64,000 bases of DNA from a virus: positions 1-64,000 of the IMG/VR virus record IMGVR_UViG_3300032132_000004. One strand, given 5' to 3'. Below are positions 512 through 37,205 of the stretch, piece by piece. Made by a program: the position numbers and the translations under genes. Each line of letters starts with the position of its first letter. Within the stretch, counting starts at the first letter, position 1. Below the pieces are notes generated by a model. It did no database searches. It was not told the origin of the DNA and saw only the letters and a program-made list of their open reading frames with translations.

Positions 512-1054
512 TTACTCTTCGGCTTCTACTTCAAGCTCTTCTGCGAAGGTTTCTTTAGTAGTTTCAGAAGAGTGGCTTGCTCCTATAGCAGATACTACGC
601 TAGCAAGTGCCCCACCCAGGTCAACGTTCTTATCAGTAGGAACGATGGCTTTAACAGCTTTGACATAGTGCTGACGCTTACGCTGGCTGAACAGAGTTAG
701 CACGCCTTCCCACGCCACAAGGGAGGGAACGAACGCTTTAGCAATACCAAAGACAGCACCTACAGCACCATCAAACGTGGAACCATCCGTAACGCCCCCA
801 GCAGCTACGAAAGCAGCACCATCTTTAAGCTGGGATTTATTGGCGATAACAACTACTGTGTCCTCACCAACCTTTTCCTTAACGGAAGCAGGAAGGTCTG
901 CGGTAGGAACAACAACTCCTACCTCTCCTTCAGCTAGTTGATCTTGTGTAGTAAAGACTGTGCCTTCTGCGAAAAACCCTCCTAGGGCCTTGCAGGACAT
1001 GAAACCAAAGCCTAGTGCGGCAGTGGCTAGTAGTGTAATAAGAATATTTTTCAT
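512..1054 (-). CDS. Small membrane lipoprotein of unknown function
   Basis: A 180-residue protein with an N-terminal lysine, a hydrophobic stretch and a likely lipobox ending at Cys21 (FMSC). This is slightly off the usual L-[AST]-[GA]-C pattern but fits a lipoprotein signal. Residue +2 is Lys rather than Asp, so outer-membrane sorting would be expected if the host uses the Lol rule. A second hydrophobic segment lies near residues 95-120 (AVGAVFGIAKAFVPSLVAW), and the C-terminus is strongly acidic. I recognise no family. It is the last gene before the terminator at 466-499, preceded by AAGG 9 bases before the ATG, directly downstream of the gp32-like gene. Phage lipoproteins in such positions can act in superinfection exclusion or lysis; either is inference only. 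Confidence 0.7.
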   Translation of the reverse strand: MKNILITLLATAALGFGFMSCKALGGFFAEGTVFTTQDQLAEGEVGVVVPTADLPASVKEKVGEDTVVVIANKSQLKDGAAFVAAGGVTDGSTFDGAVGAVFGIAKAFVPSLVAWEGVLTLFSQRKRQHYVKAVKAIVPTDKNVDLGGALASVVSAIGASHSSETTKETFAEELEVEAEE

Positions 1055-3008: not shown

Positions 3009-4313
3009 TTATTCTCCAGGCAGAGGGGACTCACCTTGTTCCATCCTAAGTGTTCCGTAATCTATATCCATGTGAACGATAAAACGGGGGCGTCCGTTGC
3101 GAGACTTGATAACATAAGCTCTCATCTTACCATTATCGTACTCTTCTTCTGTTTGGTTCAGAGAGATAGCGAAATCACAAGTTCTAATCTTACCGTAGGA
3201 GTCTCCTAGTTCGGCGTCTGTAATAACCTTAACCAAGCGTCCTTGCCTGTTGGTCTGGGTAGCAGTCCATACGAGCGTCTTGTGCTCCATGCCTACCCCT
3301 CTAAGCTCCTCTGCGATGCGCTGCTGAGCAAGATACTCCTGTTGGATCTCTCGAACGGGGCGTAGGAGTTCCAGATAGTCTACGATCAGGAGGTCAGGGG
3401 TGAAGTCCTCGTAGTTCTCAAGCTGAACCAGCAGGCTACGAATGGTATTGACCGAGGCCTGTCCAGTAGGCATCTCCTTGATAACCAATTCACTACCAGG
3501 GAACTGCTCTCGGAAGAGGTCCAAGCGTTCCTTGACGGTCAGTTGGTTAGAGGATTCTTTGAGCTTCTGCTGAGGAACCAAGGTCATAACAGAATCAAAT
3601 CTCTGTGCGATCTTATCCTCGCTCATCTCCAAGGACAGGTACAGTACCTTCTTACCCTCGGTCATAGCATGAACACCCTGGTTAACAAGGTACAATGATT
3701 TACCAGTACCAGGGGGAGCGACCACCATGGCTAGTTCTCCATTCCCAAGCCCACCTTCCAGTGATTTATCAAGAGCAGGAAGGATAGTCTTGTGCTTCAT
3801 CTCTGTCTTAAGATTGAAGACTCTATCCCAACGATCTTTCACACTATTGAAGTAGTTCTGTCCTACGTTGATATCCCTGCTAACAAGGAGAGCTTTGCGA
3901 ACGAGGTCTTCTACCTCCTCTGTCCTCTCTTCCTTGATTAGCGAAATACTTTCAGCAATGGCAATTTTCATCGCCTCCTTTTTGGCGAACCCCTCGACTA
4001 GATCAAGCAGGTACTCAGGGTTGCCTACGGTGGAGGCGTCGATGTTATTGACGAGGAGTAGCTCATCCTCATAATCAGATGCGTTCTCCCTACGACCTAA
4101 AGATGATTTAACATCTTGGGTAATAAAATCATCAGTGGGAAGTTTTCCGTACTCTTTATAGTGCTCCTCTACGACACTGAAAATCTTAGAGTGAGCAGGG
4201 TACTCAAAATAATCAGCCTTAACTAGGTTTATAATCTGATGATAGAAATCCTTATTGGATTTCAATAGGTAGAGAATACCCCGTTGGATATTGTCTGAAA
4301 AATCGTAGGCCAT
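3009..4313 (-). CDS. dnaB: Replicative DNA helicase, DnaB/gp41 family
   Basis: A 434-residue hexameric 5'-3' helicase that unwinds DNA at the phage fork. Residues 1-130 form the helical N-terminal domain (typical DnaB wording such as VKADYFEYPAHSKIF). The RecA-like motor has Walker A APPGTGKS at about 199-206, Walker B LLIVDYLELL near 307, and a later arginine-finger region (AYVIKSRNGRPRFIVH). The length is close to DnaB/gp41. The gene is flanked by a zinc-ribbon protein upstream (stop and start 1 base apart) and the metalloprotease-like gene downstream. No separate primase is visible in the window. Confidence 0.93.
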   Translation of the reverse strand: MAYDFSDNIQRGILYLLKSNKDFYHQIINLVKADYFEYPAHSKIFSVVEEHYKEYGKLPTDDFITQDVKSSLGRRENASDYEDELLLVNNIDASTVGNPEYLLDLVEGFAKKEAMKIAIAESISLIKEERTEEVEDLVRKALLVSRDINVGQNYFNSVKDRWDRVFNLKTEMKHKTILPALDKSLEGGLGNGELAMVVAPPGTGKSLYLVNQGVHAMTEGKKVLYLSLEMSEDKIAQRFDSVMTLVPQQKLKESSNQLTVKERLDLFREQFPGSELVIKEMPTGQASVNTIRSLLVQLENYEDFTPDLLIVDYLELLRPVREIQQEYLAQQRIAEELRGVGMEHKTLVWTATQTNRQGRLVKVITDAELGDSYGKIRTCDFAISLNQTEEEYDNGKMRAYVIKSRNGRPRFIVHMDIDYGTLRMEQGESPLPGE

Positions 4314-4314
4314 A

Positions 4315-4836
4315 TTACTGCTGCTTTTGGGGTTTAGAAATGTCTAAAGTCTCGCTACCAATGTCCTTGTAGCCCATCTTGTTAGCTTTATCATAGGCGT
4401 CCATGGTCAATTTTTTAGACCTTTCTACCTTTTCTGAGGCCTCTTTATCTGATAGCTTACGAACCTTACCATCTTCCGCTAGCTTTTCATAATTAATAGT
4501 AGCAGATTTGTAGCGGAAAGACTCATCATCCATAGCCTCTTTAGCTTTTTTAATTTCTCGCCTTAGGAAACGATCTCCAGACTGCTTATCATACCCCTCC
4601 TCTGCGTGCTTCTGATAGCGTCTCTTAATTGTATGGAAATCATTAGCTCCTGGGTTGCTAGAGTTACCAGCACCATCATCCTTGAAGGAGATACCAATGC
4701 CTGAGTTCCTCCAGTAGCGTTCGCTAAGCTTTTTACACTTAGGACACTTGGTTTTTTGCGGAGCCTTACCTAGCTTACACTCTCTGTCCCAGAAGATACT
4801 ACAAGGCTCACAGATCCATTCATATAATGTTAACAT
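4315..4836 (-). CDS. FmdB-like zinc-ribbon protein
   Basis: A 173-residue protein beginning MLTLYEWICEPC. Four cysteines in two pairs (ICEPC and CPKC, about 22 residues apart) form a zinc ribbon like that of FmdB-type small regulatory proteins. The remaining 120 residues are charged and probably helical. The function is unknown. Its position immediately before the helicase gene is where T4-type phages often keep a helicase loader or an accessory factor. That role is conjecture, since the sequence shows no gp59-like features. Confidence 0.6.
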   Translation of the reverse strand: MLTLYEWICEPCSIFWDRECKLGKAPQKTKCPKCKKLSERYWRNSGIGISFKDDGAGNSSNPGANDFHTIKRRYQKHAEEGYDKQSGDRFLRREIKKAKEAMDDESFRYKSATINYEKLAEDGKVRKLSDKEASEKVERSKKLTMDAYDKANKMGYKDIGSETLDISKPQKQQ

Positions 4837-6867
4837 TTAAAGAATATTAAGAATACCTGTTCCTTCCAACGCATTAAGAGTTGGGGTAGATGCTCGATAA
4901 TTTAAATCACAGCTAAGGCTTGAGTTCCAAGGCAAAAGCATCCTATCTGCTACCATACCTAATGCCACAGCAGCAAAACCTCTAGCTCTTTCTGTATGTG
5001 TATCATCGTTTAGTAGTTCAACCAAAGGATCAACAGATCTTGAGTCTCCAATAAAGGCTAGAGACATTACAATAGAAGCTTGCGTAGCAGTACTCCTAGA
5101 TTCTTTGAGCATCATAACCAAGTCTGGGACTAGGGAGTAGTCTCCCATGAGCCCAAGACTTATAGCTGCCTGTTGTATTAGTGCGGGTCGGAACTTAGAC
5201 TTACCTATAATTTCTTTAATGGGTTCGATAGCTTCACGCTCATTAAGTAATCCTAAACCCACACAAATGTAGCCCTTAGTAGGACCATCACTTGTTTTGC
5301 TGAGCTTTTTTAAGAGAAGACCCTCTACATCAAAAACTCCTGCTAGTCCAGTTGCTATACAAGCAGCACCTACTCTATTAGGAGATTTTTCAGACTCCAC
5401 TCCATCTAGAAGTACTTTAGAAATAATATCAGGAACAGGTAACTGCGCCTCCCTTAAGCGATTTGATAAAACACCCAAGGAAATGTAAGCCCATGGTTTC
5501 GCAAAACTCTTACCTTTTTGAACCTGGGTGATCAGGTACTTTTGGACCTCACCAGTGCCTGCCAAGCCATCAGGCCCAGTCCCTTGCTTGCTTCCTAGTG
5601 TAGCCAATGCAATCAAGGTAAACGATCTAGTCTGCTGGTCTGACACATTAACAGGAATCTTAAATAGAGCTTTCCTAATCTTCTTATCTATCTCATCATT
5701 GTCAGCGTCACCAAGTAACCCTAAGCCTATAACACAACTCTGCTGAACTTCTCTTTTCTCAGAGCTAGTGTACGTTAGTCTGCTGAGGAACTCATTGCAT
5801 ATAACCTCTTTGTAGAGTGCGTACTCCTCTTCATTAGCGTTAGCTATAGAAAAGCTTAAGGCCTCTGGTATGTGGGCACGGACCAAGTGATTATTTCTCT
5901 CGTTCTTAAAGTAATCTAGCAAAAATCTTACCTGCTCAACCCTAGCCTCTGTATCAAGGTTAAGCAACCCTAGGGAAACTACAGCAGCAATCTTTACATC
6001 TTTGTAGCTAGATTTATCCTCTACAATAATACCTCTTAACTCTGTAGAGATACTTGCTACAACTGCTGGGTTGTCTGATTCGCTAGCGATCAACCCTAAC
6101 GCATAAACAGCAAAGGTTCTAGTACGGAATGGAACCTCGTTGGTTCTCCCTACTGCCACCCTTCCTTCTCTAGTATCTAATACCAAAGCAGTTAGCAGGG
6201 GAATACTCTCTTCCGATCCTAAAATACCTAGAGCTAAGGCAGCAGTCTCTGAAATCTCTTGATTACTATCCTTTAGAAAAGGAATAATAACAGGTACAAA
6301 ACTATCCTGCACAGTTTGATTACCTATTTTAGCTAAGGACATAAGACATCCTGTGATAATGTCATTATTGTTTTGAGTCTCTAATGAATCTAAAAGAGCA
6401 GGAATAATTTTATCTCGTATAATTAAAGGACTAACTCCAATAATATCAGATGATTGATCCTTCTCACCATGACCTAAGAAGAAATCATCTCCACCAGTAC
6501 GTGGACCTCCTTTATGGATCTTATTCTTAAGAGCTAAGTAAGGATCTTTATTAAACTCCCACCAAAAAGACCACTGAGTTAGGTCTGGGCCTCCTAAACC
6601 TGCGGGAGAGGTAGGTTTGGCAGGACCTCCTCCTGGCTGTCCTGCGGGAGAGCCAGGAGAGGCAGGACTAGGGGAGCTAGGACCAGGGGATTTAGGACCA
6701 TTAGGAGTGGGTGTAGGACCAGGGGAGTTAGGACCTCCTCCACCTCCTCCTCCACCCCCTCCAGGGGGAACGGTATCTCCAGGCCCTCTATAGGTCCCTC
6801 CATGTCCGTAAAGAGAAGGACAACATACTAACACGAAAAAAACTACTAAACTTAAAAACTTACTCAT
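4837..6867 (-). CDS. Secreted Gly/Pro-rich HEAT-repeat protein of planctomycete type
   Basis: A 676-residue protein with a signal peptide (SKFLSLVVFFVLVCCPSLYG), then HGGTYRGPGDTVPPG and a Gly/Pro/Ser-rich linker of about 80 residues. Next comes a segment with QWSFWWEFNKDPYLALK, and then HEAT-like helical repeats from about residue 150 to the end (recurring AAxxLGxLG and IPLLxxLL patterns). HEAT solenoids are protein-binding scaffolds. I remember almost the same N-terminal wording in families of secreted HEAT proteins of Planctomycetes, and know of no classical phage counterpart, so acquisition from a planctomycete host is my inference. I chose ATG 6867 because AGGAGGTGAG lies 7 bases upstream; a longer frame to 6900 would overlap the ribonucleotide reductase gene and hide the signal peptide. 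It sits inside the replication operon. Confidence 0.75.
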   Translation of the reverse strand: MSKFLSLVVFFVLVCCPSLYGHGGTYRGPGDTVPPGGGGGGGGGGPNSPGPTPTPNGPKSPGPSSPSPASPGSPAGQPGGGPAKPTSPAGLGGPDLTQWSFWWEFNKDPYLALKNKIHKGGPRTGGDDFFLGHGEKDQSSDIIGVSPLIIRDKIIPALLDSLETQNNNDIITGCLMSLAKIGNQTVQDSFVPVIIPFLKDSNQEISETAALALGILGSEESIPLLTALVLDTREGRVAVGRTNEVPFRTRTFAVYALGLIASESDNPAVVASISTELRGIIVEDKSSYKDVKIAAVVSLGLLNLDTEARVEQVRFLLDYFKNERNNHLVRAHIPEALSFSIANANEEEYALYKEVICNEFLSRLTYTSSEKREVQQSCVIGLGLLGDADNDEIDKKIRKALFKIPVNVSDQQTRSFTLIALATLGSKQGTGPDGLAGTGEVQKYLITQVQKGKSFAKPWAYISLGVLSNRLREAQLPVPDIISKVLLDGVESEKSPNRVGAACIATGLAGVFDVEGLLLKKLSKTSDGPTKGYICVGLGLLNEREAIEPIKEIIGKSKFRPALIQQAAISLGLMGDYSLVPDLVMMLKESRSTATQASIVMSLAFIGDSRSVDPLVELLNDDTHTERARGFAAVALGMVADRMLLPWNSSLSCDLNYRASTPTLNALEGTGILNIL
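6622..6648. repeat. 27-bp exact repeat, copy 1 (second copy at 40610-40636)
   Basis: The 27 bases encode PAGQPGGGP in the linker of the HEAT-repeat protein. An identical stretch, in the same reading frame, occurs in the 915-residue virion protein 34 kb away. Confidence 0.9.
6753..6774. repeat. 22-bp exact repeat, copy 1 (second copy at 40441-40462)
   Basis: The 22 bases encode TVPPGGG just after the signal peptide of the HEAT-repeat protein. An identical stretch in the 915-residue virion protein encodes the same peptide. Confidence 0.9.
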
Positions 6868-6868
6868 T

Positions 6869-8755
6869 CTAACACTCACCTCCTGCAAGGGAACAAACAT
6901 CCCCTGCTTGTACTGCTGCCTCTACTGGTTGAACCATGTATTTATCAATGTTCTCTTGAGTTAACTCGATAGCTGCCAAGGGTTCCCCCTCCTTTGCTCC
7001 TGCTTTATACACTGTTAATCCTTTAAGATAAGGAGCATAGTCCAGAGCTTCTTTAGAAAACGATTCAGAGGTAGCGGTAGAGGGAAGATTAATTGTTTTT
7101 GAAATACAGGAGTCGATGAACTTCTGGATGGTTGCTTGTACCTTGATGTGGTCTTCTGGGGCAACGTCAAAAGCGCCGACGAATGGATCCAGCGGTTTCT
7201 TCTGATCATAATATTCTTGGAACAAAGGATCAACAACTAGGGTTTCTTTCCAAATATTGTTGCTCCTATAACGACGGGAATACATAGCAGAAAAGATAGG
7301 CTCAATACCTGAACTAACCCCGTGCAACATACTGATAGTGCCACAAGGAGGGATAGTAAGCATAACAGCGTTGCGAATGCCGTGTCGTTTGATAAGCATC
7401 CTAATACGAGCGGGGAGAGTTTTTGCAAAATCTTCATCTAGGTACTTCTTGTAATCAAACTCAGGGAAGGGCTTCTTATCCCGTGATAGGTATATAGACA
7501 TCTTATAAGACTCATCTCGAATAGTACTGAATAATCTTTCAAGAAACTCCAAGCAAGACTCACTTCCATACCGTAGGCCCAACTTGATGAGCATATAATG
7601 TAGCCCTGTGACCCCTAGACCTATGCGTCTTGATCTTTCCCCTACCTTTTTGCACTCTTCAGTTGGAAAAGTGTTAACTGTAAGAACATTGTCAAGAAAT
7701 CTTACACCCGTCCTAACAGTTCTAGCCAAGCGTTTCCAATCAAGGTCGCTACCGTCATCCAAAACCATATTACTGAGGTTAATATTGCCGAGACAACAAT
7801 TACCATAACTAGGTAATGAGATTTCTCCGCAAGGGTTCGTTGCATCCAGGCTTTCAAAGTATGAAACATTAGTATAACTATTCGCTAAATCAATGTTATA
7901 TATACCAGGATCGCCAGACTCAACGGAATTCTTCCAGATGATATCCCAAAGCTCATTTGCTTTGATATCATCTATCATTACCACTTCAAAAACATCGGTG
8001 CTTGCTAATTTGTTGAAGTTATTAGCTCTGTTGAGAGCATCCTCTTCACTCATACCAATCACCCAGATAAGATCTTCACCATTCCTGCAAAGCTGATACC
8101 TGTGGTACTCTTTGTTGTTAAACGTGAAGAACCAGTCCTCTCCCAACTCTACTGCCTCTAGGAATCTATTAGTGATAGCTACGGAGATGTTGAAGTTGTT
8201 TAGTTCTCCCTGGTCTAGCTTCACACTCAAGAACTCTAGGAGGTCTGGGTGAGTGATGTTGAGGATCCCTATGAGAGCCGTCCTGCGGTTCTTTCCTGCT
8301 CGGACATGCTCACCTACCTCATTGATCATTTTGAGCACAGAGACGCTCCCAGGGGCTGAGTTGGGGACGCTGCCGATATCATCCCCTTTAGGACGGAGCT
8401 TGGATACGTTGAAGCCTACTCCTCCTCCTGCACAGGAAATCCTGTACATATCCTTAATAGTTTTGCCAATTGAATCAACGTTATCATCAGGAATAATAAC
8501 ATAACAATTAAGCAGGTTATGATTCCCCCTGTTACGCCCAGCACCGTAAATGATACGACCCCCAGGAATGAAATCACCTGAGCCCACAGCATCATAAAAA
8601 GATTTCTCAATTTTCTCTTTCTGCTCATCCCTCTCAGCGGAAGCTACTACCTTAGCTATTACCTTCGCCCTGTCTGCCCACTTAGTCTCGCCTGGGTAAG
8701 CGTATCTTGCTTCGAAAATCTCTTGTCCTAGCTTACCTAAAGTTGCATTTGCCAT
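6869..8755 (-). CDS. nrdJ: Class II (adenosylcobalamin-dependent) ribonucleotide reductase
   Basis: A 628-residue enzyme reducing ribonucleotides to deoxyribonucleotides for phage DNA synthesis. Visible landmarks are IPGGRIIYGAG near residue 60, the first redox cysteine in LLNCYVI near 83, GGGVGFN near 110, NPCGEISLPSYGNCCLGNINLS near 305-325 with the radical cysteine, PPCGTISMLHG near 470, and a C-terminal CSLAGGEC pair that regenerates the active site. GGGVG and the PCGT loop fit the B12-dependent class rather than NrdA. No NrdB or activase gene is near, in agreement. At 628 residues it is shorter than many NrdJ. It depends on cobalamin from the host. Confidence 0.88.
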   Translation of the reverse strand: MANATLGKLGQEIFEARYAYPGETKWADRAKVIAKVVASAERDEQKEKIEKSFYDAVGSGDFIPGGRIIYGAGRNRGNHNLLNCYVIIPDDNVDSIGKTIKDMYRISCAGGGVGFNVSKLRPKGDDIGSVPNSAPGSVSVLKMINEVGEHVRAGKNRRTALIGILNITHPDLLEFLSVKLDQGELNNFNISVAITNRFLEAVELGEDWFFTFNNKEYHRYQLCRNGEDLIWVIGMSEEDALNRANNFNKLASTDVFEVVMIDDIKANELWDIIWKNSVESGDPGIYNIDLANSYTNVSYFESLDATNPCGEISLPSYGNCCLGNINLSNMVLDDGSDLDWKRLARTVRTGVRFLDNVLTVNTFPTEECKKVGERSRRIGLGVTGLHYMLIKLGLRYGSESCLEFLERLFSTIRDESYKMSIYLSRDKKPFPEFDYKKYLDEDFAKTLPARIRMLIKRHGIRNAVMLTIPPCGTISMLHGVSSGIEPIFSAMYSRRYRSNNIWKETLVVDPLFQEYYDQKKPLDPFVGAFDVAPEDHIKVQATIQKFIDSCISKTINLPSTATSESFSKEALDYAPYLKGLTVYKAGAKEGEPLAAIELTQENIDKYMVQPVEAAVQAGDVCSLAGGEC

Positions 8756-21990: not shown

Positions 21991-22806
21991 TTATCCACAC
22001 CCATTATTGATTGTAACCCTAATGGTATGGGTGCTGTTGTTCTCATCAGGCTCTGTAGTGGTGTTGTGGATATCAGCATAGATTCCAAACACATACTCTT
22101 CTTGGTCTACTTGGTATAAATCATTATACTCAAAGACTCCTGATATCTCTTGACCTGGGGCTAGACCAGCCACATCATGCTGTGCTACTAGCTCAGAAGG
22201 GGGGTTAAAAGGTATGGAAGCTACGGTTAGGACAGCAGTAGCAGGAGCATCCTCTGGGTTTAGGAATCTCCAAAAGCCTACTACAAAAGGCTGTGCTGCA
22301 TCGTTCCCTGTGTTCCTAACAGTGTAGGAATACTGTACAGTGTCAGGCCTTTCCAAGCTAATATTAGCTAGCTGAATAGGGTTTGTTCCTTCCCAGCAAT
22401 GAAAACGTGCTGCGGGCATATTGATAGGAGGGTAATGACCTTGCCCAGAGGCGGCTAAGAGCAGCTTGTCAGCAGCAAAGGTGGTCACCTGTAGGTCTGC
22501 CTTAGGAGCCTCTCCAGTGGTGTTAGAATCGCCTGCAAAGCCTGTACCCGCTGTGACCCTCGTTTGGCCTGCGATGGTCCTAGGGGCCGCGTGAGGGCTC
22601 TTACCGTGCGAGGTAATGGCATCCCCCTGTAGGGACACTTTCATACCCTCTACAAAGACGTTCTGAGAGCCAGGACCAATAATCAAACCCCCTGCTGTGT
22701 CATTCTCGACACGGCTAACCCCTTTTCCTTCTATAGTAACTCTACTACTTCCAGTTTGAGGATGCCCACACGAAGCAGGGGTTCCTTGTACACTAATATC
22801 AGGCAT
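21991..22806 (-). CDS. PAAR-type spike tip protein with CARDB-like domain
   Basis: A 271-residue protein. The first about 95 residues show the short-strand repeats of a PAAR cone (TPASCGHPQTG, then VFVEGMKVSLQGDAITSH), including Cys13 and His15 candidates for the metal site at the tip. Residues about 105-271 resemble a CARDB/Ig-like domain (VQYSYTVRNTGND, then GFWRFLNPE), a beta-sandwich used for adhesion. Together this would cap the tail spike and carry an exposed binding domain. It is the last gene before the two large adhesin or fibre genes. Confidence 0.6.
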   Translation of the reverse strand: MPDISVQGTPASCGHPQTGSSRVTIEGKGVSRVENDTAGGLIIGPGSQNVFVEGMKVSLQGDAITSHGKSPHAAPRTIAGQTRVTAGTGFAGDSNTTGEAPKADLQVTTFAADKLLLAASGQGHYPPINMPAARFHCWEGTNPIQLANISLERPDTVQYSYTVRNTGNDAAQPFVVGFWRFLNPEDAPATAVLTVASIPFNPPSELVAQHDVAGLAPGQEISGVFEYNDLYQVDQEEYVFGIYADIHNTTTEPDENNSTHTIRVTINNGCG

Positions 22807-22812
22807 TATTGA

Positions 22813-25116
22813 TTAAATACTAACCATTGCTTGTTCTGATTGAACCCCTTCGGCTGTAGAAGAGTTAGCAGATATTGCATAGTAGTATGTACCTCCCCCA
22901 GGAGGTGTATCGTTGTTTATGAAAGTATCTGTTGTTGTTCCTACGAAGACCATTTCTTTAGCGAAACTTACAGGGTCATCATTACGACCATCCCCACCAC
23001 CAATAGCGGGTAGAAGGTGCCCAGGAGTAATCAAATCACTAACTGCTTGGGCACCAGTAGCGGATCTCCAATTGCTATTTACTACAGTGGGATTTGTAAT
23101 AGAACGATATAGGTTGTAAGAAGTGGCTGCTTCAGAAGTAGTAGCTGTGGATGCTACCACAGCATCCCATGTAAGATTAACTGTACCATTTCCATTATCG
23201 GTAGCTTGTACATTTTCCGGGGCTGGGATCCAACCATCCCAAGCCTGAGAATCAAACTCTCCTCGACCAGCAGTACTTGTACTATTTTCAAAACCATCTT
23301 GATTTCTGAAGTACTTAAAGAACCAAGATTTATGGTGATTTTTCATAAAGCGGCTAGCCCTTACGTTATAAGGATCCTCATTACGAGGGAACAAGGCCCA
23401 TAAAGCAGTAGCTCCTCTATTTTCAAGGTGAGGATAAAACGTGGAAAAGCCCGCCGATCCACCATCATCAGAGCATAAGCATCCAAAAGGAGACACATCA
23501 GTATTGGAACCAGTAAAAGGCCCATCACTTCCGACATGCCAAAGACCTCCTTCAATAGAAGGAGTAGTAGATAGGCCTAAAAGAGCCCTAGCCCAAATGG
23601 AATAACCCCAAGTAGCTAATCTGTGACTACCCTTCCCAAAATAAGTATTGCCAGGACCTCCCCACGATGGGTTCCCTCCTGGCTGTATAGGAGTCCCACA
23701 AGTCTTACCAAATCCAGGGTTATCATTGTCCTCTTGTTCTCCGTTATGGAGGTATAGACTGTATCCAAGATCCCTTAAGTATTTATGATAAAAAGGAGCA
23801 CCATTGATATGGGTACCTCCAACATAAGTACATGTAGTCCCTGGTCCGTTAGCGTATTGGAAAGCAGCAGTGTGTGGGCTAGCTTGGTCTACTGCCTGTG
23901 CCATAGATGCTAACATATGATGAAGTGGTTCCCAGCTAGGATCCTTACCCAAAGCAGCGGCAGATATTATCAAAGACATGCGGGCACCGTACTCATAAGG
24001 AGCGTACCTACCATAACCGTGTGCAAGCCAATCCCTTTGGCCCATATTCTCATGACCATGCATTCCCCAGTGCTGAGGAACATTAAAAGCAAACTCAAGT
24101 ATGCGTTGAGTTATTTCCTCATCGTCATCACTCCAAGCATTATTGGGATCAATTAGCCCAAAACCATTAGCAAGTTTTGCGTGAGCACGATAAAGAACAA
24201 TCTTTTCCAACTGTAAAGCTTGATTAGAAGCAGATCCACCTGAGGTCCATTGGAAATCAGTTGGTAGATTAGTAGCAGCGGCAACAGATGTGATACCATC
24301 ATAAGTAGTTCCTCCCCATCCTGTTACCTTATCTATGGCTATGTTTTTAAAGTGTTCCCACAAGGCTACATTGTAAGAAGGAGAATCAGTACTAGCCCAC
24401 ATCCCTGATCTGTATTCAGGTTGCGAAGAACATTTAATAATCGTACCGTCTGAGCCTACAGCTTTAGCTAAATTCAAAAATCCTTCGGGTAGAGTGTCTG
24501 CATCAGCACCTATAGAGGTAATAGCTCCACTCTTAGGAGTTCCATTGCTCCAATGAACACCATAGGGATTTCCAAGCGTAATTGGATTATTTGGATATGT
24601 AACCTGATCCATACTTACAAAACCGTACCAAGGATTTCCATACGCTACCTGAAGAGAATCACCTTCTTGAAGAGTTACTGTTGCGGTAGCTAGTTGGTTA
24701 GGAAGCATACTCCCACCTTGTTGCACAGAACCATAGGTAGGCGCATCTGTATAAAGCCATGAGAAGGTGGGATCAAAAGTTGGGTACGTAGCAGTTACAT
24801 AATCCATCGTCTGTGAGTGGACTCTATAATAAACCGTAGCAAACTGTCTCGTAACTCCTGTGTGGCGACCATCGAAACCACTATGAATCCCAGGAGGGTT
24901 GACAGCTATAACATAATCTCCAGGCGTAACCCAACCGCCAGGGTATTCTTGATACCCTCCAACAGCCCACACACTCTGAATGGCTGGATTTACTGCTGTT
25001 ACTTTAACACCCATTAGATCCAAAGATCCATTAGGTTTTGGGAAAGCAGCAACAGTTAATGGTGGTGCTTCTTCTGGGGTTGCATAAGCTTCTAAACTGT
25101 AGGGTGATTCTTGCAT
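22813..25116 (-). CDS. Large tail fibre or receptor-binding protein with C-terminal FN3 domain
   Basis: A 767-residue protein rich in Trp, Tyr, Gly and His. Residues about 1-210 are beta-rich. A central region (about 300-560) has helical patches with HWGMHGHENMG and a GKGSHRLATWGYSIWARALLG helix. The last about 150 residues form an FN3-like domain (APENVQATDNGNGTVNLTWDA, then YYYAISANSS). The central fold could be an alpha/alpha glycoside-hydrolase or lyase-like barrel that cleaves host surface sugars, but I see no catalytic motif that proves it. The gene lies between the PAAR protein and the giant fibre, as expected for a host-recognition module. Confidence 0.6.
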   Translation of the reverse strand: MQESPYSLEAYATPEEAPPLTVAAFPKPNGSLDLMGVKVTAVNPAIQSVWAVGGYQEYPGGWVTPGDYVIAVNPPGIHSGFDGRHTGVTRQFATVYYRVHSQTMDYVTATYPTFDPTFSWLYTDAPTYGSVQQGGSMLPNQLATATVTLQEGDSLQVAYGNPWYGFVSMDQVTYPNNPITLGNPYGVHWSNGTPKSGAITSIGADADTLPEGFLNLAKAVGSDGTIIKCSSQPEYRSGMWASTDSPSYNVALWEHFKNIAIDKVTGWGGTTYDGITSVAAATNLPTDFQWTSGGSASNQALQLEKIVLYRAHAKLANGFGLIDPNNAWSDDDEEITQRILEFAFNVPQHWGMHGHENMGQRDWLAHGYGRYAPYEYGARMSLIISAAALGKDPSWEPLHHMLASMAQAVDQASPHTAAFQYANGPGTTCTYVGGTHINGAPFYHKYLRDLGYSLYLHNGEQEDNDNPGFGKTCGTPIQPGGNPSWGGPGNTYFGKGSHRLATWGYSIWARALLGLSTTPSIEGGLWHVGSDGPFTGSNTDVSPFGCLCSDDGGSAGFSTFYPHLENRGATALWALFPRNEDPYNVRASRFMKNHHKSWFFKYFRNQDGFENSTSTAGRGEFDSQAWDGWIPAPENVQATDNGNGTVNLTWDAVVASTATTSEAATSYNLYRSITNPTVVNSNWRSATGAQAVSDLITPGHLLPAIGGGDGRNDDPVSFAKEMVFVGTTTDTFINNDTPPGGGTYYYAISANSSTAEGVQSEQAMVSI

Positions 25117-25119
25117 AAT

Positions 25120-28100
25120 TTAATCCGTTAAAGCTGTTACTACATAATAGTACGTAACCCCGTTAGTTAGACCAGTGTGTAAAAAGTTACTAAGAGTAAG
25201 AATAGAACCATTTACCTGTGTATAAGGTCCTCCTTGATTAGTAGATTGATAAACGTTGTAGCCAAGGAGGTTACTTTCAGTATTATCATTCCAATAAAGA
25301 TTTACAAACTCATCCCCTGGGACTGCTGTAAGGCCTGTGGGTGCTACTACTGGAGGAGGAATATTTGGAATGCCCGCTACTTCAGCACTTTGTGGGGATT
25401 GGAACGATCCAAAGCTATCCCTAATAGTAGAAGGAAAAGCAGTTACTACATAATAGTACGTAACCCCGTTAGTAAGTCCTGTATCTACATAGGAGTTAGT
25501 ACCTAAATAACGAGGCACTACTTGCTCATAAGGTCCTCCTGAAATTAAAGATCTCCAAAGTAGATAAAATACAGGATCTGTATTATCAGTCCAAGTAAGA
25601 CTAAGAGTTCCATCGTTAGGAGTTACCGTTAGCCCCGTAGGTGCTGCTGGTATGGAGTCTACATACCAGCCAGGATTAATAAGAGGTTCTGTAAAAGATA
25701 CAATCCCAGCAGTTTGTATACTATCATGAAGCCATACGTTGTTAGAAACAGTAGGATTGCCTTGAAGTGAAACCCCTAAAGGAGTATCAACTTGGTAACC
25801 TCTAAGAATTCTATTATTTTTAAAAACTACATTCTTGGGAATATTATCAGAGTTACCATCATCAGGTTCTCTGCCTGTAATATTAAGAAATCTTATACCT
25901 GCATTGATCCAGTTATCTTCAATAAGAACGTCCTTAATACCTCCCTGGGGGACATTACCCCCAAGACCAATCTGCAAAGCAACACCATCTCCCCAAGGAT
26001 TCCCAGGTCCAGCATGTTCACCAAGTACTTCCATGGCTTGATGATGAGGAATATCAAAGAAGTTTCCTTTAATATCTATACCATTTCCTTTTCGTACTTC
26101 TAAAGCATTAAAAATTTCTGTATTGTAACCTAAGTGGTGAATCCAGTTTGCTTCAATAGTAGTACCAATACTATTTAATGGAGTCTTAGCATCTACTACA
26201 ATACCATCCTGCCCCATAGAATGAAGCTCACAGTATCGTAGATTAAAATCATAGCCTATTATCCCTGCTTTTGCAAAGTTTTTAATTTCTGCATTCTCAA
26301 TAGTAACTCCTCCAAAGAATCTATTAGGAGAAAGACCATCAAGAGGAGCATTGCATATAATACCATAGTCTGGTCCGTCTGTAGGGGAGACAGTTGATCC
26401 TACAACACTGAAGTTTCTAAGAGTTACAGGTATAGTAGTGGCACACCATATTGGACCGTCATGAGAGAAGTTTTCAAATACCGTTGCCTCCGTAGTCTCC
26501 CCAGTTACAGGATCATAATTGCTAAAGTTCTGTGCAACAGCGTCATCATTAATAACAAGTACACCATCCTGATTAATAGCAAAAGAATATGAGTCAGAAG
26601 CTGGTACTAAACTCCCTGCCCATCCTGTATTTCCTGCACCTGGGGTAAGGTCTATAGGGGGTGGTGCTCCTTCGCCTGAGGCTAAAGCTGTTATCTGCTC
26701 TTGCGTAAGAGCTTGAGCAAACAGACGAACATCATCAATACGCCCATGGAATGATTTGTCAGAGGGTCCACCTGGGGGCTGGTTTCCTATTGCTACAGGA
26801 ATGCCAGCGTTAACTGCAACGCTCCCTGTTTTAGGAGTGCTGCCAACCTCAAGTCCATCTAGGAACAACTTCATTGTTGTTCCATCATATAAAGCAACAG
26901 CATGATGCCATGTATTAGTTTGCAATGCTCCTTGAGAAGCTATAAGAGTAGAAGTTGTAGTACCAGTCTTTAGACGGAAGCGTAAGCGAGTTTCTCCTTG
27001 CTCAGTAATAGTACTTAGCATCCAATGATGTTCTTGCTCTTGCACTCCTACAGCTTTGGACATTATTCTAGCATCAGTAATACCAAAGGAATCAGCATTA
27101 AACCAAGTGGCTAAAGTAAAAGCACTTCCAGGGACATCTACATTCCCAACATCTACACGATCCTCTTCTCCATCAAAAACTAAGGACCAAAGGGAGGACT
27201 GCTCAGGAGAGGGATCTCCCCAAGTCGCACCTACTATAGTTCCATCATTAAATCCATACCCTGAGTCTACTGTTGTAAGACCTGTTCCTTCTTCGAAAGA
27301 CCAGTGGCCCAAAGGAGGACCAAGTGGAGGAGGTGGCGCAGGAGTGGCAGTAACTCCAGAACTCTGTGGAGACTCCTCTGCATCTGCGTTTACAGCAGTT
27401 ACAACATAGTAGTACTGAGTACCATTTTCTACAAGATCGTCTAAGTAAGAAGTACCAGTAATTAAACCAGCGTTTTGTAAAACAAAGCTACCCCTTGGAG
27501 ACTCTGAACGGAAAACATTATACCCATCAATGTTTGATTCTGAGTTAGCGTCCCAAGTAAGGGTTACAAGTTCGTCCCCTGGGTTTGCATTTAGACCTGT
27601 AGGTGCTGCTGGTGGGCCTGTGGGGGGAGCAGTTCCTGCTCCGTTAAAAAAACAAAGCTCTCCAAACAAAGGTGAGGAAGGAGGAGAGGTAAATCCATTA
27701 ATAATACTTCTTTCCGGGGGATAGTGCTCATCGTCGAATACAGTAGCATACATATCTGTATCTTCTATACCGCACCACCTATTTCCTGTAACTACAGTAG
27801 GATTAGCTCCTCCTTGGTCAAGAGAGATAGGACCAAACGCATATAAATCACCAAATATATTATCTCTAACAAAACAATTTTGAGGGAAAGGATAAGAGGC
27901 ATTCTTTCTTTCAACGTATACAATATTATTACCACCGTTCATCCAATTGTTATCAATACGAAGACCTTCAGGTCCTCCATCTATTCCGTGGGTATCATTA
28001 CTAGATTGAATAATTACAGCAGCATTAGATTTATAAATCCAGCTACCTCCTAAAGTGTAAGGAGCAGTATGTGTAGCGGCTCCTGCTATTGCAGCTAAGG

Positions 28101-29142
28101 TATCATAAGGAGCTTCGGGTCCAAGATTGTTATAATCATTAGGCCAAACAGGATTTGGGTCGCTTGGGTTTTTTGGAGGGGGGTTTGGCCCAAACCCTTC
28201 TAAAGATTGCGTCCACCTACCAGCCCCCGCAAGCACAGGTGATCCATTAAGCATTACGGTTTCCCCTGTTACATTACCATTAACAGCCCATGGATAACTG
28301 CCTCCTTGTATAGATCCCATAGGAGCTAGATTCGGAGTTTGTAAATTTCCTGTAACACCTCCCTTAGGGACTGATAGTGGATCTACCGCAGGAGTATGCG
28401 TGCCAGGGTGATTAGGATGGGGCATATCACAAAAGTTATGGTGAAAATTAACATCCCTACCTAGATTTCTAATCTGAAGTGCATCACAATGAGAGTGTAT
28501 CCCGCGACCGTTGTGATGAATCCAGTTATTATTTATCTCAGACCTCATAAGACTAAGCATAGAATCAGCACCAGCATCATGCATATTATTATGGTGCCAA
28601 TGATTTCTAGTCCCCTCTTCTACACCCCCATTACATATAATATGCTGGCTAATAGGATTAAGCATTTCACAAAAACGAATCTCCGTGGAGGAGTGTAAAG
28701 TATTGGCAGAAGGTATATTAACACATTGAGAATTAGAAAATGCTGCATCAATCCAACAATCTTCAATCAATATGTTATTGGCTTTTTGAGCTTCCGTACC
28801 TTTAATTAATATGCTACGTAGATCACACTTCTTTATAGTACAATTACTATGCCTGATTTCTATATAAGAAGTAGCAATAACATTTTCTATAATTTGATTA
28901 TCTGCTGTTGTTTTTATACGTGTTCCATTCCATAAGGGGTGATTTTCTTGAGAGATAAAAGTAATATCAGTCTTCTCTACTGGTGTATGTCCTATAACAA
29001 TAGCCCCAGGTCCAGTGTTGGTAGGTCCTGGCTTTTCTACTCCTCCAATAATATTTTGAGTTGGAACTCCGGTATCTCGTACAGTAACAATACGACCTTC
29101 TTTTCTAACTTTCTTATAATAACGATCTCTACGTTGTGCCAT
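25120..29142 (-). CDS. Giant tail fibre or adhesin with two beta-helices, LamG and three FN3 domains
   Basis: A 1,340-residue protein. After a basic tag (MAQRRDRYYKKVRKEGRIVTV) come, in order: a right-handed beta-helix (about 80-500, with N/H/G-rich coils such as WIHHNGRGIHSH), FN3 (about 514-600), a LamG/concanavalin-like domain (about 610-817, WSFEEGTGLTT, then WSLVFDGEEDRVDVG), a second beta-helix (about 847-1150, again with WIHH-type rungs), and two more FN3 domains (about 1164-1250 and 1266-1340). Beta-helices in phage tails bind or cut polysaccharide; LamG and FN3 modules bind glycans or act as spacers. The paired halves suggest internal duplication. It starts at ATG 29142 with AAGGAAG upstream. 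Confidence 0.7.
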   Translation of the reverse strand: MAQRRDRYYKKVRKEGRIVTVRDTGVPTQNIIGGVEKPGPTNTGPGAIVIGHTPVEKTDITFISQENHPLWNGTRIKTTADNQIIENVIATSYIEIRHSNCTIKKCDLRSILIKGTEAQKANNILIEDCWIDAAFSNSQCVNIPSANTLHSSTEIRFCEMLNPISQHIICNGGVEEGTRNHWHHNNMHDAGADSMLSLMRSEINNNWIHHNGRGIHSHCDALQIRNLGRDVNFHHNFCDMPHPNHPGTHTPAVDPLSVPKGGVTGNLQTPNLAPMGSIQGGSYPWAVNGNVTGETVMLNGSPVLAGAGRWTQSLEGFGPNPPPKNPSDPNPVWPNDYNNLGPEAPYDTLAAIAGAATHTAPYTLGGSWIYKSNAAVIIQSSNDTHGIDGGPEGLRIDNNWMNGGNNIVYVERKNASYPFPQNCFVRDNIFGDLYAFGPISLDQGGANPTVVTGNRWCGIEDTDMYATVFDDEHYPPERSIINGFTSPPSSPLFGELCFFNGAGTAPPTGPPAAPTGLNANPGDELVTLTWDANSESNIDGYNVFRSESPRGSFVLQNAGLITGTSYLDDLVENGTQYYYVVTAVNADAEESPQSSGVTATPAPPPPLGPPLGHWSFEEGTGLTTVDSGYGFNDGTIVGATWGDPSPEQSSLWSLVFDGEEDRVDVGNVDVPGSAFTLATWFNADSFGITDARIMSKAVGVQEQEHHWMLSTITEQGETRLRFRLKTGTTTSTLIASQGALQTNTWHHAVALYDGTTMKLFLDGLEVGSTPKTGSVAVNAGIPVAIGNQPPGGPSDKSFHGRIDDVRLFAQALTQEQITALASGEGAPPPIDLTPGAGNTGWAGSLVPASDSYSFAINQDGVLVINDDAVAQNFSNYDPVTGETTEATVFENFSHDGPIWCATTIPVTLRNFSVVGSTVSPTDGPDYGIICNAPLDGLSPNRFFGGVTIENAEIKNFAKAGIIGYDFNLRYCELHSMGQDGIVVDAKTPLNSIGTTIEANWIHHLGYNTEIFNALEVRKGNGIDIKGNFFDIPHHQAMEVLGEHAGPGNPWGDGVALQIGLGGNVPQGGIKDVLIEDNWINAGIRFLNITGREPDDGNSDNIPKNVVFKNNRILRGYQVDTPLGVSLQGNPTVSNNVWLHDSIQTAGIVSFTEPLINPGWYVDSIPAAPTGLTVTPNDGTLSLTWTDNTDPVFYLLWRSLISGGPYEQVVPRYLGTNSYVDTGLTNGVTYYYVVTAFPSTIRDSFGSFQSPQSAEVAGIPNIPPPVVAPTGLTAVPGDEFVNLYWNDNTESNLLGYNVYQSTNQGGPYTQVNGSILTLSNFLHTGLTNGVTYYYVVTALTD
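25136..25167. repeat. 32-bp direct repeat, copy 1 (FN3 coding)
   Basis: A 32-base stretch encoding TNGVTYYYVVT of an FN3 domain is identical to 25442-25473. A looser third version lies near 27395-27430. The exact match at DNA level indicates a recent FN3 duplication or gene conversion. Confidence 0.9.
25442..25473. repeat. 32-bp direct repeat, copy 2 (FN3 coding)
   Basis: Identical to 25136-25167, in the same frame, in the neighbouring FN3 domain of the giant fibre. Confidence 0.9.
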
Positions 29143-35413: not shown

Positions 35414-36796
35414 TTACTTTACATTAAGCATCTCAGCGATTATGTTACCAATTCTCTTGTAGGCAACAGCCTCGTGAGTCCCGTGTTCTTTCTTAAATCT
35501 ATCTTTACTTTGGGTTGCGGCTCCTCTAGCTCCCCCTATGTATTTTTTCCTTTTAGCTTTATCGTCGTTTGGGTTATTTTTTCTTGCCTTAGTCAGTCTT
35601 GCTTTAAGCTGTTTGGCTAATTTATTCCTATCGGCCTGAAGCTCTACGGTTCTAGTTTCGCCTGGTTTTCTACCCGCTACTGTCCTTTTAGAGTCTTTAG
35701 GTTTAAGGGCATCAGCCTTCTTTTGGAGCATAGCCTTACTCTTATCGGAATAGTCTGCTGACCCTGGGCCTCCAGCGCCAAGTTTAGCTCTTAAACCTAC
35801 ATCGCCTCCAGCTTCGCCCCTTGCTCTGATTCGAGATGCCTGAACATCGCCCACAGCTTCTGCCCTTTTACCTGCTTTTATCCTCAAACGATCCCTAAAG
35901 CCAGGACCACTTTTGCCGCTACCACTAGGTTGCCTAGATATTAGTTCTTTAGCAAGGTCCCTATTTTCTTTATCCTTTTTTTGGGAATCTAACTCACTAC
36001 TAATATCTTCTCTAAGAATAGAAGCAAGAGCATGTGCTATTGGGATATAAGAATCTTGAACATAGCGCATCATTTGATTCGAGGGCCTCTTCTTCTTCTT
36101 CTTCTCAGGCTTCTTAGGCTTCTCAGGCTTCTCAGGCTTCTCAGGCTTCTCAGGCTTCTCAGGCTTCTCAGGCTTCTTAACCTCCTCAATCCAAGGCTGA
36201 TATGCTTCACGAAGTTTAGACTGTAGCATGGTAACTAGGTTACCCTCTTTCTTAAGCTTGCTCTGAGACTCTCTAACAAACTGGTTTTCTGTAGACTCAC
36301 ACATGCCTGGGAAAGCTCCTCTAGTTGATGGATCTGCAACTAGGTCGAAGGTAACTAGCTTGTAGTCTTCGTTGACGATCTTGTTTCCTTCAGAATCTTC
36401 TGAAAGAGTTCCCATGCCTCTGCTTGAAATACCAATCTTAACTCCACCTTCTACAAGAGCTTTAGCTGTAAGACCAGCAGGAGTGTTCAGGAGTTCTGCT
36501 TCTCCAATATAATCGTTGCCTACTAGGTCTAAAGTTGTGATTAGGTGGGAAGCGTTAGAGAGCTTTACAGTGTCGTTCTGGGGGTGGTCGAGTTCTCCGC
36601 ACAGTCTGCGCTCTGCAATCAAAGGCTGAACCTGCTTTAGCTGTCCTTCTAGAACATTACGTGGGTAGATTCTACCGTTGTTGTTCTTCTCATTACAACG
36701 ACCAAAGACGCCCTTAATCTTAGTTGGGCCTTTACCTTTACTTTCAGAAATAATCTGTAGGTTCTCAATTATAAAAACATCTTGGAGTAATTGCAT
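35414..36796 (-). CDS. gp21: Prohead core protease, gp21-like, with long basic C-terminal extension
   Basis: A 460-residue protein. Residues 1-190 are the gp21-type serine protease that digests the scaffold: CGELDHP with His71 and SSRGMG with Ser124/125 at the expected places, then FDLVADPSTRGAFPGM. After residue about 200 comes an EKP repeat (36102-36173), a Lys-rich stretch, and about 220 basic, Arg/Gly-rich residues ending EMLNVK. T4 gp21 is 212 residues, so the second half is an extension, possibly a DNA- or scaffold-binding tail or a fused core protein. I chose ATG 36796, with AAGGA upstream, rather than a longer frame to 36838. Confidence 0.88.
   Translation of the reverse strand: MQLLQDVFIIENLQIISESKGKGPTKIKGVFGRCNEKNNNGRIYPRNVLEGQLKQVQPLIAERRLCGELDHPQNDTVKLSNASHLITTLDLVGNDYIGEAELLNTPAGLTAKALVEGGVKIGISSRGMGTLSEDSEGNKIVNEDYKLVTFDLVADPSTRGAFPGMCESTENQFVRESQSKLKKEGNLVTMLQSKLREAYQPWIEEVKKPEKPEKPEKPEKPEKPEKPKKPEKKKKKRPSNQMMRYVQDSYIPIAHALASILREDISSELDSQKKDKENRDLAKELISRQPSGSGKSGPGFRDRLRIKAGKRAEAVGDVQASRIRARGEAGGDVGLRAKLGAGGPGSADYSDKSKAMLQKKADALKPKDSKRTVAGRKPGETRTVELQADRNKLAKQLKARLTKARKNNPNDDKAKRKKYIGGARGAATQSKDRFKKEHGTHEAVAYKRIGNIIAEMLNVK
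36102..36173. repeat. Nine-base tandem repeat coding for Pro-Glu-Lys
   Basis: Eight tandem copies of a 9-base unit (plus strand TTCTCAGGC; the second copy has one change) encode PEK/KPE triplets inside the prohead protease gene. Copies this uniform are prone to replication slippage, so length variation between isolates is likely. Confidence 0.95.
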
Positions 36797-36797
36797 A

Positions 36798-37205
36798 TTA
36801 TTTATCCTTCTTATCTTCTCTTCCGTCCTTGCCACCAATACCGCGTTCCTTCTTGATGGATCTACTACCGTACTTCTGAGCTAACTTGTCTGAGCCTTTG
36901 CCGTACCTTAGGAGAGTACGTGCAGCGTGCTTCTTAACGCTAGGAAACTTAGCGGAGGGGGTAGCACTTCCAGGCGTGAAGCCTTTAGCGATCTTTCCTC
37001 TACCACTCTTCTTGCCCCACTTACCTTTAGATACAACGTATATCCTACCAGCAGCTTTAGTTGTAAACATACTACCATAAGCCCCATCAGAGAGAGCAGA
37101 CTTAATACTATCGTAAGTCTTAACTCTTCCTTTGAATGCTTTCTTCTTTTCCTTAGGCTCTTCTTTGCCTTCGGAAAGTGTGGTTAGTAGGTCAGTAAAT
37201 TTCAT
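36798..37205 (-). CDS. Basic prohead-core-type protein (hypothetical)
   Basis: A 135-residue, very basic protein with repeated Lys/Gly/Ser patches (GKWGKKSGRGKIAKGF, KPSVK-type stretches) and a charged C-terminus. I recognise no family. T4 has small basic or acidic core proteins (gp67, gp68) beside gp21; position and composition suggest a similar internal core protein. It overlaps its upstream neighbour by 4 bases and is followed 1 base later by gp21. Confidence 0.55.
   Translation of the reverse strand: MKFTDLLTTLSEGKEEPKEKKKAFKGRVKTYDSIKSALSDGAYGSMFTTKAAGRIYVVSKGKWGKKSGRGKIAKGFTPGSATPSAKFPSVKKHAARTLLRYGKGSDKLAQKYGSRSIKKERGIGGKDGREDKKDK

Follow-up and report, generated by a model that had tools for sequence, protein, structure and literature searches.

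A secreted HEAT-repeat protein of planctomycete ancestry, carried in full-length and truncated forms by T4-like phages

The 64,000-nt stretch of viral DNA analysed here (the window), part of a 73,033-bp IMG/VR record, carries a gene for a secreted HEAT-repeat protein that almost certainly belongs to an unnamed family of Planctomycetota, described below by its motifs as the secreted HGG-WWEF HEAT family. The simplest account of its history, in which we have high confidence, is that phages captured the gene at least twice from a single planctomycete order. One phage lineage has since cut it down to its N-terminal module.

The contig is a T4-like phage: it encodes a tail sheath, a major head protein and a head maturation protease (all by PHROGs), and also a gp32-like SSB, PolA, ThyX and an SbcCD-like pair. 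The open frame of interest runs from 6900 to 4837 on the minus strand (687 aa). The gene itself (4837-6867, 676 aa) was taken to start at the ATG at 6867 rather than at the head of the longer frame because a perfect Shine-Dalgarno sequence, AGGAGGT (6878-6884), lies 10 nt 5' of that codon; the first-pass annotation had called the same start correctly. The gene order is nrdJ, HEAT gene, a gene for a Cys-rich protein and a DnaB-type helicase gene (Table 1). A single base separates the nrdJ stop from the HEAT gene start (TAG A ATG), and the other junctions span 0-1 base. An earlier reading had the gene cotranscribed with NrdJ and the helicase, and from such tight packing one transcription unit is likely. 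The Cys-rich protein, which has no Pfam or PHROG family, also adjoins the HEAT gene in the related phage contig L003 and lies one gene away from it in L002.

Several other genes were noted. A small lipoprotein-like gene (window 512-1054) stands beside the gp32-like SSB gene and has a homologue in the same place in L002 (7020-7550). At 21991-29142 a PAAR-like protein precedes two large repeat proteins that by inspection contain FN3-like and beta-helix-like segments and probably make up a tail spike or adhesin. Outside the window (G000:C1 70390-71264), a lipoprotein-like gene overlaps a small membrane protein gene, and the two could be a spanin-like pair. By inspection, genes resembling IscA- and IscU-type Fe-S proteins adjoin the HEAT gene or lie close to it in three phages of the window type (L002:223-558; L003:1558-1893; L015:1214-1588 and 6606-6941).

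Table 1. Coordinates of the HEAT gene, the parts of its product and its neighbours in the window.
Feature	Position	Strand	Basis
Secreted HEAT-repeat protein of the phage (676 aa; CDS including stop)	4837..6867	-	ORF; HEAT_2 E 3.9e-30; AGGAGGT
Signal peptide MSKFLSLVVFFVLVCCPSLYG, aa 1-21	6805..6867	-	By inspection; hydrophobic 11-mer before HGG
Conserved mature N-terminus HGGTYRGPGDTVPP, aa 22-35	6763..6804	-	Invariant residues; DNA-level match
Gly/Pro linker, aa 36-94, disordered	6586..6762	-	Length kept; pLDDT about 30
DLTQWSFWWEFNKDPYLALK element, aa 95-114	6526..6585	-	Invariant core; DNA-level match
HEAT solenoid, aa 147-640	4948..6429	-	AF2 model, pLDDT mostly 80-95; Pfam
C-terminal tail LPWN...NYRA...TGILNIL, aa 642-676	4840..4944	-	Predicted disordered yet conserved
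Ribonucleotide reductase, NrdJ-like (upstream neighbour)	6869..8755	-	Pfam Ribonuc_red_lgC E 3e-108
Cys-rich, zinc-ribbon-like protein, 173 aa (downstream neighbour)	4315..4836	-	ORF
DnaB-type helicase (downstream neighbour)	3009..4313	-	Pfam DnaB_C E 7.5e-19

Aligned with the relatives that a peptide scan returned, the window protein shows the family layout: signal peptide, HGGxYRGPGDxVPP, a Gly/Pro-rich tether of almost constant length, D-L-T-x-W-x-FWWEFNKD, HEAT repeats, and a terminal LPWN...NYRA...GILDIL. The signal peptide, Gly/Pro linker, WWEFNKDPYLALK segment and HEAT repeats described in the first-pass annotation are all present in the 676-aa protein, which shows every family feature tested (HGGx[YF], FWWEFNKD spacing, HEAT solenoid, C-terminus and nesting in the tree). 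HGGx[YF] is found in 24/24 phage and 68/71 host sequences, with a hydrophobic 11-mer ahead of HGG in all 24 phage members and in 67 of 68 host members. The residue just before the motif is A, G or S in 21/24 phage and 67/68 host sequences, so signal peptidase would expose the histidine as residue 1 (His1). Within the mature N-terminus, H, G, G, Y, G, P, D and P are invariant across phage and host copies, and the distance from HGG to WWEF is 77-87 aa in phages and 69-95 aa in hosts. The AlphaFold2 model of the window protein has a confident solenoid (147-640) between disordered N- and C-terminal arms; prediction for the short forms introduced below is confident for the HEAT helices only. The window protein ends in NYRASTPTLNALEGTGILNIL, matching the NYRA...GILDIL feature, and an ILDIL-like end is found in 5/5 full-length phage copies and 56/56 full-length host copies.

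For the HEAT part, the only family matches are to generic repeats, and the N-terminal module had no match in PHROG, NCBIfam or PADLOC profile searches. A fold search with the model returned only generic HEAT/ARM solenoids from the PDB and nothing at E<=0.001 from a viral library, and sequence-level structure matches were limited to designed alphaRep and one HEAT protein. Phycobilin lyase-type models of the CpcE/NblB kind (NF058502, NF045915) were rejected at 24-33 bits against cut-offs of 300-330; those proteins have HEAT repeats in common with this one but are cytoplasmic and lack the N- and C-terminal motifs. Anti-phage HEAT-ARM proteins were rejected likewise (PADLOC HEAT-ARM_XIII, 23 bits across 81 of 1972 positions), and the short form and a host copy matched no PADLOC profile. 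A histidine-brace copper protein (LPMO or CopC type) was set aside, the N-terminal His being the sole His invariant in short and full-length forms, as was a lipoprotein of the T5 Llp type, HGG following directly on a small residue and the window protein having no consensus lipobox.

Among cellular organisms the family is concentrated in one order. Genomes of 84,980 species were scanned for the window protein's exact peptide patterns, and the only confirmed cellular matches were two MAGs, both from the same order and one carrying the name Planctomycetota. Of 151 genomes of that order, 142 have a full-length match at E<=1e-150; in a phylum-wide sample, where the limit was much looser (E<=1e-20), 61/199 Planctomycetota genomes have a match. 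The impression that the protein is of planctomycete type, gained at first from its wording, is borne out. Genomes of the order are usually multi-copy for the gene, with tandem arrangements in some (the planctomycete MAG G001:C349, L162, has a run of five HEAT paralogues). Related sequences with an FWWENNKD variant come from planctomycete genomes that fall elsewhere than the clade containing the phage copies. One host copy is syntenic across genomes; its neighbours are an SpdS-like membrane protein and a secreted esterase, each at 17 loci, often with purM, dxr, rseP and sdhABC; this arrangement includes a single 6.9-Mb contig (G157:C1). At loci L058-L074, L014 and L172 the SpdS-like (c0) and PHB-esterase-like (c1) proteins form a conserved pair beside the host gene, and they are possible partners of the host HEAT protein. 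The near order-wide distribution and conserved chromosomal synteny argue that the cellular gene is old and vertically inherited, and therefore that the phages are the recipients. Host members such as CANEYR010000123.1 (two tandem copies) and JAUIEE010000023.1 share the architecture of the window protein at <=46% identity. They are chromosomal, syntenic and full-length, with 60-72% GC in most loci, whereas the phage copies are AT-rich and accessory and often end two to three HEAT repeats into the solenoid.

In trees of the conserved region the window-type copies form one clade (support 100/100); a host subclade A contains the copies of the window, L002, L003 and L015 (100/98), and a host subclade B contains that of L016 (100/99). 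A constraint to a single phage clade is rejected (p-AU 2.45e-42). It is because phage copies nest in two host subclades and monophyly is rejected that we count at least two captures. Both phage types are under purifying selection, with dN/dS of 0.16-0.19 for full-length copies and 0.06-0.14 for short forms. The full-length phage homologues keep 50-59% identity to the window protein over its full length along with this low dN/dS, which is more than chance would give.

All phage carriers found are IMG/VR contigs, 26 of which carry the family, most of them showing a T4-type terminase/portal region. Neither the window protein nor the short form has a match among 50,697 phage records of INPHARED, and 72,556 plasmids gave no match to the protein. 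The first-pass annotation had held that closest relatives in another phylum or in many unrelated phages would undo its host inference; neither was found, the confirmed cellular matches lying in one planctomycete order, INPHARED yielding none and the phage carriers being IMG/VR contigs, mostly with the T4-type region. Window-type phages (L001-L003, L015) have full-length copies, which in the window, L002 and L003 lie within a nucleotide-metabolism/replication operon. In a second set (L004-L011, L018-L029) most copies are only about 220-240 aa long and terminate in ...LALGKEVK or ...GIAALGK; their usual surroundings are terminase and portal genes and genes for a glycosyltransferase-like protein and a DUF1360-like membrane protein. 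The copy in L016 belongs to the second type although it is full-length, and that in L017 runs off its contig. In L023 (9208-10731) the short HEAT-derived gene sits among seven tRNA genes, between tRNA-Pro and tRNA-Thr.

The short forms correspond to about the first third of the protein, without the C-terminal tail and most of the solenoid; the stretch present in both forms runs from the signal peptide through the HGG motif, tether and WWEF element to the first HEAT repeats. Host copies lie in ORFs of >=641 aa in 48 of 49 cases (12 genomes), the exception being a broken gene (G002:C117), and on these 49 copies the intact short form appears to be phage-specific. The gene is accessory rather than essential, since a close relative with a terminase 93% identical (L077) has the DUF1360-like flanking gene and no HEAT gene at the same site.

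To our knowledge few phages of Planctomycetota are known; a literature search found no planctomycete T4-like isolate and nothing relevant on planctomycete phages with HEAT proteins. The host of these phages probably belongs to the order that carries the family, which is the best candidate because the gene is nearly universal there and was captured twice from it. Gene phylogeny, the sole basis of this assignment, narrows the earlier suggestion of a planctomycete host to one order. Planctomycete CRISPR spacers, which the first-pass annotation had proposed as a check, gave no such support: 60 kb of phage, set against 154 genomes from the order, yielded no spacer-like match. Phage-related terminases in 392 planctomycete genomes are only distant (best E 1e-50, no close match), so support from a co-binned phage or prophage is absent. 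GC content also sets phages (0.38-0.46) apart from host loci (0.51-0.72). The gap is large but not disqualifying, since there are AT-rich T4-like phages with GC-rich hosts, T4-like cyanophages showing comparable gaps, and the tRNAs of L023 mostly read A-ending codons. When 20 kb of phage was compared with the 154 genomes at the DNA level, nearly all matches fell on the HGG and WWEF stretches of the HEAT gene, at 6731-6813 (mature N-terminus region) and 6538-6594 (the WWEF element). Matches near 36.1 kb, in a Lys/Pro/Glu repeat, were set aside as spurious; the head maturation protease encoded at 35414-36838 has such a repeat at its C-terminus (EKPEKPEKP...), a source of spurious matches to GC-rich genomes.

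Very probably the site of action of the phage protein is outside the cytoplasmic membrane. The N-terminal module is all that full-length and short copies share, so their common function probably lies there, and we lean toward this module being the shared working part. On present sequence evidence we give an even chance to the proposal that the protein is a host-derived secreted scaffold whose N-terminal module would engage, beyond the cytoplasmic membrane, the partner of the host family, as scaffold or as decoy. The Sec pathway would export the HEAT protein during infection, and HGGxYRGPGD on its Gly/Pro tether of fixed length, together with WWEFNKD, would bind a partner of the host's own family members in the periplasm or at the surface. 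Full-length copies might then serve as extra scaffold, and short copies, without most of the solenoid and the conserved tail, as decoys occupying the partner. The envelope of the infected cell would be altered, most plausibly by a block to superinfection or by stabilisation or remodelling until lysis. Among secreted phage proteins, superinfection exclusion is the best-known role, and in this particular case we put it forward tentatively. A similarly tentative, more specific version is that phages of one planctomycete order repeatedly took an order-wide envelope scaffold and reduced it to an exported N-terminal decoy, by which a host surface assembly or phage receptor would be disarmed. Lambda Lom, which sits in the outer membrane and is of the host Ail/OmpX type, and Bor are likewise envelope proteins of a host family carried by a phage, but they differ in fold and location and come from lysogenic conversion genes in temperate phages, whereas the HEAT gene sits in T4-like phages.

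The main rival to a scaffold or decoy is envelope maintenance: the full-length copy may replace the host scaffold after host expression is shut off and keep the envelope working until lysis, with no decoy or exclusion involved. Window-type copies, which keep the solenoid and C-terminal motif at a dN/dS of about 0.16-0.19 and in three contigs sit in the nucleotide-metabolism/replication operon, would suit such an auxiliary role. The short forms, however, are equally or more constrained with most of the solenoid and the tail gone, and close relatives manage without the gene, so we regard maintenance as rather unlikely. We think the same of receptor masking, in which a family member or partner in the host would be the phage receptor and be blocked by the phage protein as Llp blocks FhuA. 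Secretion, accessory status, purifying selection, two captures and a phage-only truncation all fit an exclusion gene, and there is a precedent in T5 Llp, a periplasmic superinfection exclusion lipoprotein of the phage that inactivates the receptor FhuA (PMC9586334). Like Llp, the HEAT protein would be exported to the periplasm to act on a host envelope partner; but Llp is a small lipoprotein of unrelated sequence, while the phage HEAT protein has no lipobox, has a HEAT solenoid and clear host ancestry, and shows no link to tail fibres.

An improbable alternative is that the N-terminal module decorates virions or aids lysis instead of meeting an envelope partner. The short-form gene does lie near terminase, portal and repeat-rich adhesin-like genes, but a Sec signal, the replication-operon setting of the window-type gene, the L023 copy inside a tRNA array, the lack of conservation in close relatives and the lack of any PHROG match all speak against it. 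That the planctomycete match is a chance low-complexity or HEAT resemblance, or a binning artefact, is very improbable: HEAT repeats and Gly/Pro linkers do match widely and both named genome matches are MAGs, but the non-repeat signature (HGGxY, FWWEFNKD, NYRA...ILDIL) is common to both sides, the DNA-level matches fall exactly on signature stretches, and the host genes lie in conserved chromosomal synteny, including the 6.9-Mb contig.

The new elements are that the gene was captured repeatedly, that its truncated form appears in phages only, and that a module has been delimited for testing. Without any cultivation, the gene connects a set of T4-like contigs with one planctomycete order, and the truncation made by the phages points to the part of an order-wide family that is worth testing. 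If the decoy reading is true, the HGG-tether-WWEF module would be the docking part of a planctomycete envelope system, and the gene would be a sequence marker for phages of that order.
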